From the IMG/VR virus record IMGVR_UViG_3300050821_001827, positions 1 to 38,084 of that record: a stretch of 38,084 nucleotides of DNA; one strand, written 5' to 3'. How positions within the stretch are numbered: position 1 is the first letter of the stretch; the number at the start of each line of letters is the position of its first letter. The notes below the pieces were generated by a model. That model saw only the letters and a list, made by a program, of their open reading frames with translations. It was not told the DNA's origin and searched no databases. The position numbers and the translations under genes were made by a program. This DNA is from a virus. Positions 19,997 through 27,570 of the stretch are shown piece after piece.

Positions 19997-21352
19997 TCAA
20001 ATCTTCTTGGCTTTTTTGCCCGTTAATTTTTCCCACCGTCGGATAATAACGGAAGCGTACACAGGATCCAGCTCGCATCCGAAGCACCGGCGCTCCGTGA
20101 CTTCGGCGCCGATCAGGGTGGTGCCCGAGCCCAGAAAGGGATCGTAAATAATGCCCCCCCCCTTGGTGCTGTTTTTAATCGCGCGCACGGCCAGCTCTAC
20201 CGGCTTCTGCGTAGGGTGTTCCGTTTTCGAGTCCCGGCCGACTTCCCAGACCGTTCCAGAGCTGTCAAGAGTCGAGAGTCTGAGCGTTTCTTCCACGCCA
20301 ATGCGCGCTGTACGCAGTTTTTTATTAGCTGGCGGTTTGGCCTGGATCCAGAGGCGGTTGCCTTTTCCGTCCTGGATGAGGATCCCGTTCCCGATGATGG
20401 TTGAGATATTACCTCGACGGTTCGTATTGACGCGCCACACAGTGGACTCTGCTGCATCTCCGTAAAATGCCGGTTTGCGATCTCCCTTGCTCGCATAGAA
20501 GCACGGCTCATGCGACCAGTGGTAGTCGGAGTATCCCATCGCAAATCCGCTTTTAGCCCAGATGAGGTATTGCCGCTCGACGATCCCCGCGGCGCGCATG
20601 GCATAGGCGAAGTCCTCGCGGGTTGAGGAGGCGTGCCAGATGTAGAAGGCGGCGGTATCGCTGGTAAAGCGAGTAGCGAGTTTGAAGGCGGGGGCAAGGA
20701 GATTGACCAGCGCATCGTCACGGAGGTCATCCCCTTTGATGATCGCATGCTTTCCGCTCCGCGCCTCGTAGCTGACTCCATACGGAGGATCCGTGAAACA
20801 AAGGTCTGCTCGGCTATGACCCATAAGGCGTTCAACATTTCGCGCGTCGGTGCAGGATCCAACAAGGAGACGGTGATCGCCACACGCCCAGAGATCTCCG
20901 ACTTTGGTGATCGGTTTCCCTGCTGGCGGGATTTCGTCCAAGTCTTTTTCTTCATTGTCTGTTTCCTCCCTGAGTTCGTTTAGTCGTAAATCGAGCCATC
21001 CTTCCGGGACGGCCGCCTGGATGTCCTCCAGGATTCCTTGCAGATCATCCGTAAATTCGCCGGAGACTGCGGGACTGTTGAGCGTGACGTTCAGCGCCTT
21101 TTCCTCGCCTGGCGGGAGATCCACTTCGATCACCTGCACGTCCGTCTCGCCTGCGGCCGCCAGGACCTTAAGGCGTTGATGGCCGCCCACCACGTTCCCG
21201 GTGCGCTTGTTCCAGATGATGTGCTGCACGAGTCCGAAGCGCTTGATCGATTCACCCAGGCCAGACAGTGCCTCTTTGGAGATCGTGCGCGGGTTGTAAT
21301 CCGCCGGGTGCAGGTCTTTGATCTTCATGGTTTTCGTTTTGTGCTGTAGCAT
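19997..21352 (-). CDS. ParB-domain DNA adenine N6-methyltransferase
   Basis: A 451-aa protein. The ATG at 21352 is preferred because AAGGAG lies 6-7 bp ahead. Residues about 9-110 form a ParB/Srx-like domain (IKDLHPADYNPRTISKEAL, GGHQRLKVLAAAG). The methyltransferase follows, with LCFTDPPYGVSYEA (DPPY, motif IV) and, near the end, IYDPFLGSGTTLIGAE plus CFGCELDPVYA (SAM-binding motif I). Motif IV before motif I is the beta class. It probably methylates adenine to protect phage DNA from restriction or mark it. An N4-cytosine-type enzyme is encoded just upstream, separated by 40 bp. Confidence 0.8.
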   Translation of the reverse strand: MLQHKTKTMKIKDLHPADYNPRTISKEALSGLGESIKRFGLVQHIIWNKRTGNVVGGHQRLKVLAAAGETDVQVIEVDLPPGEEKALNVTLNSPAVSGEFTDDLQGILEDIQAAVPEGWLDLRLNELREETDNEEKDLDEIPPAGKPITKVGDLWACGDHRLLVGSCTDARNVERLMGHSRADLCFTDPPYGVSYEARSGKHAIIKGDDLRDDALVNLLAPAFKLATRFTSDTAAFYIWHASSTREDFAYAMRAAGIVERQYLIWAKSGFAMGYSDYHWSHEPCFYASKGDRKPAFYGDAAESTVWRVNTNRRGNISTIIGNGILIQDGKGNRLWIQAKPPANKKLRTARIGVEETLRLSTLDSSGTVWEVGRDSKTEHPTQKPVELAVRAIKNSTKGGGIIYDPFLGSGTTLIGAEVTERRCFGCELDPVYASVIIRRWEKLTGKKAKKI

Positions 21353-21392
21353 TACATTCTCCTTGACCATTGTGGTGGTGCCACCGAAATGG

Positions 21393-22421
21393 TCATATGA
21401 ATTTCAGTTGTGCTTTCTCGCTGGCGATCCGGCGTTCGGCGATGGCCGCATAACCGGGATTGAGTTCGATGCCGAGAAAATGCCGGCTGTATTGGGCGGC
21501 CACGAGAGCGGTCGTCCCCGCACCCATGAAGGGATCCAAGACCACCCCGCCAAGCGGGGCCCCCGCCAAAATACAAGGCTTGATGAGCTCGGGCGGAAAC
21601 GTGGCGAAGTGGGCCTCTGAAAATGGACAAGTGGCAATCGTCCACACGCTCCGCTTATTCCGCATCCCAGAGCATTGCTCTGCCTTTTCCATCGCGTCCC
21701 ATCTGTCATTAAAACCGGCATGCCGGCGACCATGTCCACGCTGCTTGTCTCGATGATGGCGTGGGCCCCTTGCTTGTCCGCGATGTGCTGTTTGTCCTGG
21801 CGGAGCATAACCAGAATGAGCACGATCCATTCGTGCCATCGACACCTCAGAAGCCGGTTCTTTGATTGCATCATTGTCGTAGAAATAGCGTTCAGATTTT
21901 GACATCAAAAAAATGTATTCGTGCGCGGTCGATGGTCTGTCCGTTACGCTCTCTGGCATAGAATTGGGTTTTGACCATATGATGGTCTGCCTGGCATACC
22001 AGCCATCAGCTTGCAAGGCCTGCGCGACACGATGAGGCATGAACAATTGATTCTTTGCTTTTAGTAATACGTCCGAAAGTCGGTTATTGTCTATACCGGC
22101 TGCGGAGGCTCGATTGGTGGCCTGCTTATATCCGGTACGCGTTCCATGCCCTTGCCGTCCATTGGCATTAAAACTATCGCCGAGGGTCAGCCAGAGAGTT
22201 CCATCGGTGCGCAGCACGCGGCGAATTTGCCGAAAGACTTCGACCATCTTGGCCACGTATTCTTCAGGCGTCTTTTCGAGTCCGAGTTGGCCAGCCACTC
22301 CATAATCCCTCAAGCCCCAATACGGCGGCGAAGTCACGCAGGTTTGAATGAAGGCGTCGGGCCATGAGCGCAATACATCCAGACAATCCCCCACATAAAT
22401 GCGGTCGAGATCAGGAGTCAT
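21393..22421 (-). CDS. DNA methyltransferase, SPPY-type (probable N4-cytosine)
   Basis: A 342-aa protein when started at ATG 22421 (MTPDLDRIYVGDCLDVLRSW), which matches the usual family N-terminus. Earlier ATGs would add up to 23 unlike residues. TSPPYWGLRDYG at residues 30-41 is motif IV of the SPPY subclass. DPFMGAGTTALVAAQYSRHF followed by GIELNPGYAAIAERRI is motif I near the C-terminus. The 130 residues between motifs contain the target recognition part and an HRGQARGPRHHRDKQRGHG basic loop. It likely protects phage DNA from host restriction. No cognate endonuclease gene is adjacent. Confidence 0.75.
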   Translation of the reverse strand: MTPDLDRIYVGDCLDVLRSWPDAFIQTCVTSPPYWGLRDYGVAGQLGLEKTPEEYVAKMVEVFRQIRRVLRTDGTLWLTLGDSFNANGRQGHGTRTGYKQATNRASAAGIDNNRLSDVLLKAKNQLFMPHRVAQALQADGWYARQTIIWSKPNSMPESVTDRPSTAHEYIFLMSKSERYFYDNDAIKEPASEVSMARMDRAHSGYAPPGQTAHRGQARGPRHHRDKQRGHGRRHAGFNDRWDAMEKAEQCSGMRNKRSVWTIATCPFSEAHFATFPPELIKPCILAGAPLGGVVLDPFMGAGTTALVAAQYSRHFLGIELNPGYAAIAERRIASEKAQLKFI

Positions 22422-22494
22422 TTCTTTCGGCGCCTCCAAAAACACCAATGGACCCATCGTCCGCCCACCCATACGTCCCCGCGCCAGCAATGCA

Positions 22495-23893: not shown

Positions 23894-24146
23894 CGGTCAC
23901 TCCTGGTTTTCGGTTGCTCTTTGAGAAGTCGTTGGCTTTGGGGCATGTGGCGAAATGGCTTACAAAGGCGTCTATTATCCGTCTAGCATTCACTGGATCA
24001 GGATTACGCTGATTGCCTGGATGCGATTGAACCAATTCGTAAACTGGCGGCCTCGGATCGAGCGGGATCTTCTTGCCTTCCGGGGTCGTGCCCCACACGA
24101 TTGGTTTGCCGCATCCTCTACACGGTGACGTTTTCAGGTTTTCCAT
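23883..24146 (-). CDS. Small zinc-ribbon protein
   Basis: An 87-aa protein with GAAAGGAAAAACCA before the ATG. It starts MENLKTSPCRGCGKPIVWGT, continues with PEGKKIPLDPRPPVYEL, and has a later HFATCPKANDF. The C-x2-C plus H/C pair is a zinc-binding layout. This arrangement ('C.gCg..i.w..t..Gk..PlDp.pv..') is common in phage and actinobacterial small proteins. Function unknown. It overlaps the DUF3268 gene by 29 bp. Confidence 0.65.
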   Translation of the reverse strand: MENLKTSPCRGCGKPIVWGTTPEGKKIPLDPRPPVYELVQSHPGNQRNPDPVNARRIIDAFVSHFATCPKANDFSKSNRKPGVTDAV

Positions 24147-24543
24147 TGGTTTTTCCTTTCAGATAAGGTTGGCAAACTTTCACCACTCTGATGCAATCGT
24201 TCACGTCCATCATTCCAATGTGGCATTTACTTCTCGGCATTTTGAGTTGTTCGGCCAGCCAGTAATAGCCTCGCGTCCTGGCGCCCTTTCGGTTGGTTCT
24301 CCCGGTCGCCGCGCGCCGTTGCCATAGAACATCGAAGGCTTTGTGCGCAGCCATTTTAGCGGTACGCAATTCCCGGTTAGCCAGACGCCCCAAGGGTTTT
24401 GTGGTCCCTTTGTGGCATCCCACGTAAGCGTCGCACTCTGGGTATTTGGAACAAACCCAGACGGGCCCATACCCGCGCCCATTGTAAATCAAGGCGCTGT
24501 CGATCAGGATAACCTCGGATCCGCAATAGGGGCATGGGCTCAT
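24118..24543 (-). CDS. DUF3268-like zinc-finger protein
   Basis: A 141-aa protein starting MSPCPYCGSEVILIDSALIY. It continues with YGPVWVCSKYPECDAYVGCH (second cysteine pair), KPLGRLANRELRTAKMAAHK and AFDVLWQRRAATG, then YYWLAEQLKMPRSKCHIGMM. This order is the DUF3268 family. The zinc ribbon resembles topoisomerase C-terminal fingers, which suggests single-stranded DNA binding. It is ATGA-coupled to the winged-helix gene and part of the recombination block. Confidence 0.8.
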   Translation of the reverse strand: MSPCPYCGSEVILIDSALIYNGRGYGPVWVCSKYPECDAYVGCHKGTTKPLGRLANRELRTAKMAAHKAFDVLWQRRAATGRTNRKGARTRGYYWLAEQLKMPRSKCHIGMMDVNDCIRVVKVCQPYLKGKTNGKPENVTV

Positions 24544-24764
24544 GCAAATCTCCGCTGCCCGGATGCTTCCGGAGGAATCATCGTATAGACATTTTCGCCG
24601 GGACGCTTGCTCCGCTGGCATGTGACGGTATAGCCTTCCCGACGCAGCTCCGTAATTCTGGCGCGGTACTCGCTCGCAAACGATGTCTGGAGAAGATCAT
24701 GGAGTCTCAGCGTCCAGTTGTTGTCTCTGAAGAACCGCACCAGCTCTTGCGCTTGAGGTTTCAT
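24540..24764 (-). CDS. Small winged-helix protein
   Basis: A 74-aa protein with a 1-bp TGATG overlap to the upstream gene. The pattern FFRDNNWTLRLHDLLQT, then FASEYRARITELRREGYTV, then RPGENVYTMIPPE is that of small phage helix-turn-helix domains: a recognition helix around R-A-R-I-x-E-L-R, then the wing. It may act as a regulator or as a DNA-binding helper in the recombination block. Confidence 0.65.
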   Translation of the reverse strand: MKPQAQELVRFFRDNNWTLRLHDLLQTSFASEYRARITELRREGYTVTCQRSKRPGENVYTMIPPEASGQRRFA

Positions 24765-25021
24765 CAGAATGGGATATCGTCGCCAGGTAAATAGGGCGGC
24801 GTTGTGGGATCAGGTGGTGCAGGGACTGGATCTTCATTCTCTTTTTCGAGTACCGGGACTCGCTCGAGTATCTTGTCCGCCATATCGAAGGCTTTGTCTG
24901 CCGTCGAATGCAACACCATTTGACCGTCGTTTATCATGGCATGCATTGCCACCGCCGCTAGGATCAGGCGAGTAAGCGCCAGATCCTCACGGTTATCCAT
25001 GAATTTTGGTAGTGTCCTCAT
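24764..25021 (-). CDS. Small protein with SSB-like C-terminal tip
   Basis: An 85-aa protein, ATGA-coupled upstream, with AGGAGG 7-8 bp before the ATG. The first 60 residues are helical (LALTRLILAAVAMHAMINDG, KAFDMADKILERV). A Pro-rich linker follows (PVPAPPDPTTPPYLP), ending in GDDIPF. Bacterial SSB proteins end in an almost identical acidic DDDIPF tip that docks RecO, RecQ, PriA and other repair enzymes. This protein has no OB fold, so it may copy only the docking tip. Family of the helical part not recognised. Confidence 0.6.
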   Translation of the reverse strand: MRTLPKFMDNREDLALTRLILAAVAMHAMINDGQMVLHSTADKAFDMADKILERVPVLEKENEDPVPAPPDPTTPPYLPGDDIPF

Positions 25022-25671
25022 TGGATATCCTCCTGCCACGCCGTCACCCCGCTGATCCCATGCGCTGCTCCCAAGGCTCGCACCATCTTGCCGATCGTTA
25101 CTTCGTCTGCGATCAGGTACTTGCGATCCAGTTTGTTCACGTCGACTTTGAATTTCCAGATTTTGCGGGTAGGCATGCCTTGGATCTTTGGAGCCTCCGG
25201 GGTCTTGGGGGCCACGGCTTCGACATGCAATGGAGCTGCCTTCAGGTTCTTGGCCGCTTCCTTGTCGCCCAATTCCTTAGCCTTGGCGATCTCCTCGGCT
25301 CGCGCTTTTTCGGCCGCAATCCTGGCCTTCTCATTGGCTTTGCGGGCTTCCTCCTGCCGCTTGGCTTCCACATCGCGCCTGTAGGTAATCATTTTCTGGT
25401 CCACAATCGCTTCGGCCCCATCAAAGGGCTTGACGATCATGTTGCAGATTTCCGATAGGTACTTCCACACGCCATGGGCATCCGCCTTCTTTTGAAGGGG
25501 CTTGGCCATGATCTCATCCCGCTTGGTGCGGATGGCCAGCTTAAAGGCCGCCGCCTGCTCATAGGACTCATTGTTTTTGATCGTGATCGCCCGGGCTTCG
25601 TTTTCGAGCACCGTCGCTTTGGCTACAATCAATCGTGCTTCTTTCTCATCGGGTCTTTCGTCGCTTGTCAT
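25018..25671 (-). CDS. Coiled-coil recombination-cluster protein
   Basis: A 217-aa protein starting MTSDERPDEKEARLIVAKAT, with AGGGAGGAATTACCA before it. An earlier ATG lacks such a site. Residues about 15-150 are a long Ala/Glu/Lys-rich coiled coil (NEKARIAAEKARAEEIAKAK). The C-terminal domain (TRKIWKFKVDVNKLDRKYLI, GISGVTAWQED) has the 'W.....d...vP.eYl..d...i...v' pattern often found beside RecT and exonucleases. The family is DUF1351-like by pattern. It may bind DNA ends or load nuclease. Function not established. Confidence 0.6.
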   Translation of the reverse strand: MTSDERPDEKEARLIVAKATVLENEARAITIKNNESYEQAAAFKLAIRTKRDEIMAKPLQKKADAHGVWKYLSEICNMIVKPFDGAEAIVDQKMITYRRDVEAKRQEEARKANEKARIAAEKARAEEIAKAKELGDKEAAKNLKAAPLHVEAVAPKTPEAPKIQGMPTRKIWKFKVDVNKLDRKYLIADEVTIGKMVRALGAAHGISGVTAWQEDIQ

Positions 25672-25835: not shown

Positions 25836-26465
25836 TTAAGCATATTTCTCTTTCCATCTGGCCGCCCGCTCCCGGGCCTGCCCTTCCGCCAGAATGTCTT
25901 GAAAGGCCGCCTCATCATCGGGGTCATCATGCGGTATGAGTTTGTAAAACCCATCGCTCTGAAGCCGGAGGCCATACCGGTCATAGACGGGAGTCTTTGG
26001 AAATGTCGCATTCCAGAGTTTGGCATAGCCCACAGTCTGCAGGCGCATGCGGGGCTTTCCTTGCTGGCTCGTCTTGTAATCAATGACTGCCCGCTTGTTC
26101 CGAATGAATTTGATCAGGTCCGGGGTTCCTGCGAGCCCCATGGCTGGGCAAACAAGGCGCTGCTCCCATGCCACGATCGGCCCTTTGCATTCGGCATGGA
26201 AGCGTTCAACCGCCCGGACATATCCCTCAATCCGGGGGTCCACTGTAGACCAATCGAGCTCTCCTGCCACAAAGAGGGCCGCGGCCAGATGGACCGCATT
26301 GCCCCGGCCTTGGCAGAAGGCCAGCTTGTCCTGGGGAACGTTGGCGAAGTCATCCCCCAAAACATCCTTGATATACCCGGTCACGCTTTCGTAGCGTTTC
26401 CCCCGCCAATGGTAGGAGTGGGGTTCGGCTGTAAAGACGATCTCATCAAGTGGCAGAGTGTTCAT
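25836..26465 (-). CDS. PD-(D/E)XK exonuclease, partner of RecT
   Basis: A 209-aa protein. The ATG at 26465 has TGAGGT 5 bp ahead and shares one base with the stop of the microprotein before it. An ATG 14 codons earlier lacks a ribosome site. Motifs in order are GNAVH (55-59), GTPDLI (113-118, acidic residue 116), VIDYKTSQ (127-134, D129 and K131) and QTVGYAKLW (143-151). This is the RecB-like/lambda-exo-like fold. It should degrade one strand from double-strand ends, giving substrate for RecT encoded upstream. The tRNA-like fold follows its stop. Confidence 0.8.
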   Translation of the reverse strand: MNTLPLDEIVFTAEPHSYHWRGKRYESVTGYIKDVLGDDFANVPQDKLAFCQGRGNAVHLAAALFVAGELDWSTVDPRIEGYVRAVERFHAECKGPIVAWEQRLVCPAMGLAGTPDLIKFIRNKRAVIDYKTSQQGKPRMRLQTVGYAKLWNATFPKTPVYDRYGLRLQSDGFYKLIPHDDPDDEAAFQDILAEGQARERAARWKEKYA

Positions 26466-26545
26466 TAATACCTCACCATGATCCAGAAGAATGCCACGAC
26501 GGCCCATAGTGCGTTAATCGTCACAATCGCTTGGGGCCAGCTCAT
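26465..26545 (-). CDS. 26-aa membrane microprotein between RecT and exonuclease
   Basis: The frame begins MSWPQAIVTINALWAVVAFF and ends WIMVRY. Its ATG overlaps the RecT stop by 4 bp, and its TAA shares one base with the exonuclease ATG, so it fills the gap exactly. A GGAG lies about 11 bp upstream. It is a single hydrophobic helix. It may be a coupling leader or a true membrane peptide. No known family. Confidence 0.55.
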   Translation of the reverse strand: MSWPQAIVTINALWAVVAFFWIMVRY

Positions 26546-27570
26546 GAGAAATGGCTCCGGTGATGAGCCCTTCCGATTTTGCCGTCATACCCGATTTCCT
26601 GACCCACCAAGATCTCCTTGCCGCATGTCTGGCACTTGGATTCGCGTTTTGAGGTCATTTGCCGCAGGTTTGAGGGAAAGGGTGGCAGAGCCGCTTTACC
26701 CCCTCCGTTCGCTTGTTTTGTGCTTCCTGCGGGGTCTGTAGCCTCTTTGGCAAACACCGCATCCACCGTGGTTTTGCTTTGTTCGATGTCTTTGAGGATG
26801 TCCTGCAGGTGTTCAACCACCTGTTCCTCGGTTTCAAGTTCCGGATGCCGCGCCACATAATCCGCGATTTCGGCTCTTTCTACCGTGATGGCCTCAAAGG
26901 CTTTGAAGATCATTTCCCGAGTTTCAGCGATGTCTGCGGGGGTTGTATCAACCTGTTCCTTTTCTTTGGTGCTTTTCGGCATGGCAATCGGTGGCACCAC
27001 CGTGGTATCGACATAATCCCTGACTTCCTCTACGCCTCCAAGCCCATGCAGAAGATCCGCCGCCACGTCCCGGGCGCAGAACCAGAAGGCCCGCCATGCG
27101 AGCATCCGGTAGGGATCTGTCTGCCATGGCCCTTCTTTCTTCAGAAGTTTGGCATGCTCGGCGTTTTCCATGGAGAAAGTCCGGATCGCTTGCCGCTTGC
27201 CATCCGCTCGCGTAATTCGGCACCAAGCCTCACCGCTGGCCCGGATCTCTTTGATATCGCGTTCCTCGATCCGGCACCCTTTGGCTAAGAGCAGGGCTTT
27301 CCCCATATCTCCATAGATGGTAGGGCGCCCGTTGATGACGCAGATGTTCTGGATGGCCTGCATGGGGGAGAGCCCGACTTCGGCCCCCATCTGAATGGCG
27401 ATGTAGCAGTTCCCGGGCTTGTCCTTAAAGTTCTTGGGTGCCAGGTCTGAGCCTGCGATGAGTTCCGAGAGCTTGATGGCTTCCTGAACCGTTGCCGGCA
27501 TTGTGTTAAAGGCCTGCGTGACGATGGACTTCTCTACCTTTTCTGCGTCTTTGATCTCTGCTTTTGCCAT
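26542..27570 (-). CDS. recT: RecT-family single-strand annealing protein
   Basis: A 342-aa protein with CAGGGAGGATTCA before the ATG. The core at residues about 40-200 has NCYIAIQMGAEVGLSPMQAI followed by QNICVINGRPTIYGDMGKAL, then PYRMLAWRAFWFCARDVAAD. This is the RecT/Bet-like signature. The C-terminal 120 residues are a flexible Glu/Thr-rich linker and a zinc ribbon (SKCQTCGKEILVGQEIG, then histidines in RAHHRSHF). It anneals single strands and acts with the exonuclease downstream. It may also recruit host proteins through the linker. Confidence 0.88.
   Translation of the reverse strand: MAKAEIKDAEKVEKSIVTQAFNTMPATVQEAIKLSELIAGSDLAPKNFKDKPGNCYIAIQMGAEVGLSPMQAIQNICVINGRPTIYGDMGKALLLAKGCRIEERDIKEIRASGEAWCRITRADGKRQAIRTFSMENAEHAKLLKKEGPWQTDPYRMLAWRAFWFCARDVAADLLHGLGGVEEVRDYVDTTVVPPIAMPKSTKEKEQVDTTPADIAETREMIFKAFEAITVERAEIADYVARHPELETEEQVVEHLQDILKDIEQSKTTVDAVFAKEATDPAGSTKQANGGGKAALPPFPSNLRQMTSKRESKCQTCGKEILVGQEIGYDGKIGRAHHRSHFS

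Follow-up and report, generated by a model that had tools for sequence, protein, structure and literature searches.

A small phage protein with an SSB-type C-terminal tip on a helical carrier in a RecT/exonuclease gene block

The window, that is, the whole stretch of DNA that was analysed, corresponds to a 38,084-base virus record of IMG/VR, linear and possibly a fragment, which encodes a terminase, a portal, a major head protein and a tail sheath. It contains a recombination gene block whose members follow one another on the same strand in the order RecT, PD-(D/E)XK exonuclease, coiled-coil accessory protein, 85-aa protein and 74-aa protein, the RecT and exonuclease genes lying upstream of the 85-aa gene and reading in its direction. 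The features of the block are the following:

26542..27570, minus strand: RecT-like annealing protein (phrog_561, E = 1.7e-29)
25836..26507, minus strand: PD-(D/E)XK exonuclease (phrog_298, E = 2.3e-21)
25018..25671, minus strand: coiled-coil accessory protein of the PHROG 10477 'exonuclease' group (phrog_10477, E = 4.7e-14), its start reassigned to an ATG preceded by GGGAGG
25029..25034, minus strand: AGGAGG ribosome-binding site of the 85-aa gene
24764..25021, minus strand: 85-aa protein, with helical hairpin, Pro-rich linker and GDDIPF tip (translation, ribosome-binding site, overlaps)
24860..24991, minus strand: predicted helical hairpin, residues 11-54 (AlphaFold, family HMM)
24785..24859, minus strand: Pro/acid-rich linker, predicted to be unstructured, residues 55-79
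24767..24784, minus strand: SSB-type C-terminal tip GDDIPF, residues 80-85 (translation, ordering control)
24540..24764, minus strand: the next gene, encoding 74 aa, whose start overlaps the stop of the 85-aa gene (TGATG)

In the RecT of the window the usual annealing-protein C-terminus is replaced by a Cys/His-rich segment, CQTCGKEILVGQEIGYDGKIGRAHHRSHF, which has the appearance of a zinc-binding element.

Judged from its ribosome-binding site and its overlaps with both neighbours, the 85-aa ORF is a real and convincing gene: the AGGAGG stands 7 nt upstream of its ATG, this ATG overlaps the stop of the upstream gene (ATGA), and its own stop overlaps the ATG of the downstream gene. Its translation is MRTLPKFMDNREDLALTRLILAAVAMHAMINDGQMVLHSTADKAFDMADKILERVPVLEKENEDPVPAPPDPTTPPYLPGDDIPF, and confirms the GDDIPF end that a previous sequence-only reading had likened to the tip of SSB. 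The same reading had described a helical part followed by a Pro-rich linker, without an OB fold and set beside RecT and an exonuclease, and on all these points it was borne out. Modelling by AlphaFold with a 46-sequence alignment predicts a hairpin of two helices (residues 11-32 and 37-54) with no strands, and residues 55 to 85 are predicted to be unstructured; the ORF has no OB fold and no match to PF00436 at E<=1, and the phrog_561 and phrog_298 genes are found just upstream. Searches of the PDB and BFVD with the protein returned nothing significant, and a match to PHROG 3471 (E = 0.018) was dropped because that group offered no usable members. The only close relative of the record comes from practically the same phage, as a nearly identical contig with 1 mismatch in 14.5 kb, which therefore carries no information on conservation, and no independent homologue of the protein with the tip was found among the phages, plasmids, viral contigs and GTDB contigs searched.

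The helical carrier resembles, by sequence comparison, small phage proteins with the pattern GMTLRDYFAAxAM...AYxxADAML, called the 'Large blastP family' by the authors of phage phiGT1 and exemplified by Sulfitobacter phage phiGT1_48. The family was first retrieved with a hand-written consensus, and all later profiles were built from actual family sequences. With a 91-member profile the 85-aa ORF comes first among all ORFs in the six frames of the window (E = 0.001), and a 45-member profile from which the window protein was excluded scores it at 16.1 bits (E = 0.003 among 7,490 ORFs), a score reached by none of 20,000 shuffled versions of its core, whose maximum was 10.2. Alignment by hhalign with ten family members gave a P-value of 0.0066 and a probability of just 5.8%, so the kinship is remote. 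The hairpin is best described, with E-values of about 0.001-0.003, as a probable distant and diverged member of this large phage family. It shares with the phiGT1_48-type proteins the two-helix layout and the core A-A-x-A-M plus A-x-x-x-A-D-x-x-L, as well as an occasional location beside RecT, ERF or exonuclease genes; it differs in having acquired a tail of 31 residues that bears the tip, and in keeping only in part the N-terminal signature GGPAFP / RD[YW]FA[AG], at which LPKF and TRLILAA of the window protein align. Among the relatives, one adjoins RecT in KLEP18-1, another lies between erf and the exonuclease gene in ct2t2046, and a third precedes a PD-(D/E)XK nuclease in BUCT711; with a limited query set, an annealing, exonuclease or accessory gene was found within about 3 kb of 14 of 80 viral members.

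Tails of at least 8 residues occur in 8 of the 91 members, and the only tip-like end is that of Rhizobium phage RHph_N2 (YYDEDRPF, a loose version ending DEDRPF). Since the other 90 members lack an SSB-type tip, the tip is a graft on the carrier and not a conserved function of the family. The sequence-only reading had stated that homologues keeping the helical part without the DDIPF end would speak against it, and at the level of the family this is what was found. Its interpretation is partly supported: a helical carrier that lacks an OB fold does bear an SSB-type tip within a RecT/exonuclease block, but in the form in which it was given it is not supported by the carrier family.

The possibility that such an end arises by chance was addressed by counting all 60 orders of the residue classes of [DE][DE][ILVM]PF at the C-termini of 7,298 stop-to-stop ORFs (at least 50 aa) from 110 viral loci that had not been chosen for tips. 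The SSB-type order occurred 8 times, in 7 SSBs and in one 148-aa protein beside RecT, and the other 59 orders together occurred once. Hence the order of the tip residues is strongly non-random at viral C-termini, and the resulting rate, about 2e-6 per ORF per ordering, which amounts to the order of 1e-4 over the roughly 60 genes of a window, makes it unlikely that the GDDIPF of the 85-aa protein arose through chance. A second copy was sought in the viral and GTDB collections by an 8-mer scan and by a two-block DNA pattern (ADx[IM]L, linker and acidic-x-PF tip). Neither scan found a second carrier-plus-tip protein; they returned only SSBs, one ERF and unrelated or out-of-frame ORFs.

SSB-type tips are present on other phage proteins. 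Eighty viral ORFs, in 31 sequence clusters, end in GDDIPF-TGA, none of them a relative of the carrier; 14 match the SSB profile and 66 do not, many of the latter being other ssDNA-binding proteins. In a representative set of 37 non-SSB tip proteins (35 from the GDDIPF set plus those of L054 and L252), PHROGs identified several ssDNA-binding families, RecT, Erf, a DNA helicase and an exonuclease of phrog_298. Examples, whose tips read GDDIPF, GDDVPF or GDEVPF, are:

L137:936-1892: RecT with a GDDIPF tip
L252:4724-5605: ERF with a GDDVPF tip
L257:2315-3157: ERF with an SSB-type tip
L176:1486-2700: exonuclease with an SSB-type tip, of the same PHROG (phrog_298) as the exonuclease of the window
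L199:157-1851: DEAD/ResIII helicase with an SSB-type tip

In the sequenced Rhizobium phage RHph_I1_23 the ERF ends in GDEVPF and is encoded downstream of a tail-less carrier gene, and the genome has no PF00436 SSB. Three other loci hold carrier, annealing-protein and tip genes as separate neighbours, while carrier and tip are fused in the window: a 148-aa protein ending GDEEVPF, RecT and a carrier-family gene in L054; carrier, RecT and a 141-aa protein ending GDDIPF in L163; and ERF, carrier, an exonuclease-like gene and a 79-aa protein ending GDDIPF in L174. Curated SSB matches were found in 0 of 37 non-SSB-tip contigs versus 4 of the 50 contigs with a carrier and 9 of the 25 with an exonuclease, a difference that is no more than suggestive of mutual exclusion between non-SSB tips and SSB, the contigs being fragmentary and the groups unmatched.

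Two further proteins deserve mention. The 148-aa protein of L054 (L054:1805-2251), directly upstream of RecT, has no PHROG match, and its middle part resembles an ExoX-like C-terminal segment of L146 and L252. A 131-aa non-SSB protein ending ESDDDIPL (L009:6931-7326), which lies near exonuclease and accessory genes, was set aside because its end is not kept in the homologues of L047 and L048.

In related exonuclease/accessory modules the place after the accessory gene, occupied here by the 85-aa gene, is often held by SSB: a true SSB ending DDDIPF follows the accessory gene directly in L012, L013 and L021, L026 likewise has a neighbouring SSB, and in L006, L008, L033, L034 and L036 the SSB gene is no more than about 2 kb away. 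The whole record of the window has no PF00436 match at E<=1, and, the record being possibly a fragment, an SSB may be encoded elsewhere. The 85-aa protein has in common with SSB (PF00436) this neighbourhood and an extreme C-terminus with acidic residues and Ile-Pro-Phe after a disordered linker (the SSB-Ct, DDDIPF); it differs in having a helical hairpin in place of the OB fold, and from its sequence it would not be expected to bind ssDNA. The relatives of the window exonuclease belong to phages of Shewanella, Pseudomonas and Xanthomonas, which weakly points to a proteobacterial host. Proteobacterial SSBs typically end in DDDIPF, so the GDDIPF tip would fit the partners available in such a host.

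Participation of SSB tails in phage recombination has precedents. Loading of the annealing protein Sak4 onto SSB-coated ssDNA requires the last six residues of the SSB of phage HK620, NDYPPF (PMC5928155); there, as in the window, a phage-encoded SSB-type tip is next to an annealing protein, but the HK620 protein that bears it is a true SSB coating ssDNA. The C-terminal domain of Red-beta binds SSB as well as lambda exonuclease; its K253A substitution abolishes SSB binding and nearly abolishes recombination in vivo (PMC8303780). RecT owes its host range, or tropism, to recognising the last seven residues of SSB (PMC10711431). The recombination mediators lambda Orf/NinB and YbcN (PMC4118853) are likewise small phage recombination accessories that exploit the SSB tail; however, Orf and YbcN bind SSB, whereas the window protein would present the tail itself. 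A search confined to the open-access literature found no phage protein described as a stand-alone carrier of an SSB tail.

The reading we tentatively place first, as one that may well hold, is that the 85-aa protein would be a recombination adapter, lending to the RecT/exonuclease machinery the docking peptide of the SSB tail. The helical hairpin, recurrent beside annealing and exonuclease genes, would presumably dock onto the phage recombination machinery; the flexible Pro-rich linker would display the tip; and the tip may fill the pocket normally taken by the tail of host SSB, either in host SSB-interacting proteins of the RecO, RecQ, PriA and ExoI type or in an annealing protein that recognises SSB tails. 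Though lacking an OB fold, the adapter would in this way do the docking that a phage-encoded SSB does at the same place in related modules. That the gene is instead a degenerate SSB, which lost the OB fold and kept the tail, is very improbable in spite of its position after the accessory gene, since the predicted fold is a helical hairpin and the score of the N-terminal part against a different phage family was reached by no shuffle; identity as an SSB or SSB remnant was rejected for this assignment of the helical part to the GMTLRDYFAA/AYxxADAML family. An acidic, Pro-rich end that merely happens to read GDDIPF, with no role towards SSB partners, would explain why the tip is neither conserved among the carrier relatives nor found in a second lineage in the viral and GTDB scans, and when many windows are read a rare coincidence could surface; but the rate given by the permutation control, the disordered linker that precedes the tip as in SSB, and the location in the right gene block make such a coincidence improbable.

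Two other readings accept the tip as functional. It could act as a decoy, titrating ExoI, RecQ, RecO, PriA or other host SSB-interacting proteins off SSB, with the effect of protecting phage DNA ends or of blocking host repair or defence. A carrier with no recognisable DNA-binding domain could indeed let the tip compete in trans, and the GDDIPF end, the ordering control and the predicted hairpin with disordered tail serve the decoy as well as the adapter; yet a single tip would have to compete with tetrameric SSB on DNA, and the location among recombination genes would be unnecessary. Recruitment was ranked first because elsewhere the tips belong to proteins working on phage DNA, such as RecT, ERF and exonuclease, and the decoy seems rather unlikely. 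The tip could also serve inside the phage, binding its own RecT at the SSB-tail site and tuning how RecT is loaded or takes over from the exonuclease, with no part for the SSB partners of the host. Recognition of SSB tails by RecT/Red-beta proteins (PMC10711431, PMC8303780) is in favour of such an internal regulator, as is the order in which the 85-aa gene comes after the RecT, exonuclease and accessory genes, but the RecT of the window ends in its Cys/His-rich segment with no recognised Red-beta-type C-terminal domain, and this alternative is a minority one that we regard as unlikely.

In bacterial DNA repair the tail of SSB is the docking hub, and it accounts for part of the host range of phage annealing proteins. 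A tail carrier that stands alone among RecT and exonuclease genes would demonstrate that docking is separable from the coating of ssDNA, and would offer recombineering systems a candidate part for host adaptation. In a broader sense, it is conceivable, although we hold it with reserve, that for phages the SSB tail is a transplantable handle, which those with no canonical SSB of their own graft onto other proteins; the recipients would be annealing proteins, exonucleases, helicases or, as here, a tiny dedicated adapter, and the recruiting role of SSB would be separated from its DNA-coating role.

Downstream of the recombination block, the adjacent ORFs 19997-21370 and 21393-22490 read as DNA methyltransferases, the former with a DPPYG motif and a ParB-like N-terminus and the latter with a TSPPYW motif. 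A DUF3268 zinc-finger protein is encoded at 24118-24621 (E = 5.6e-42) and is weakly similar to Lar restriction-alleviation proteins.
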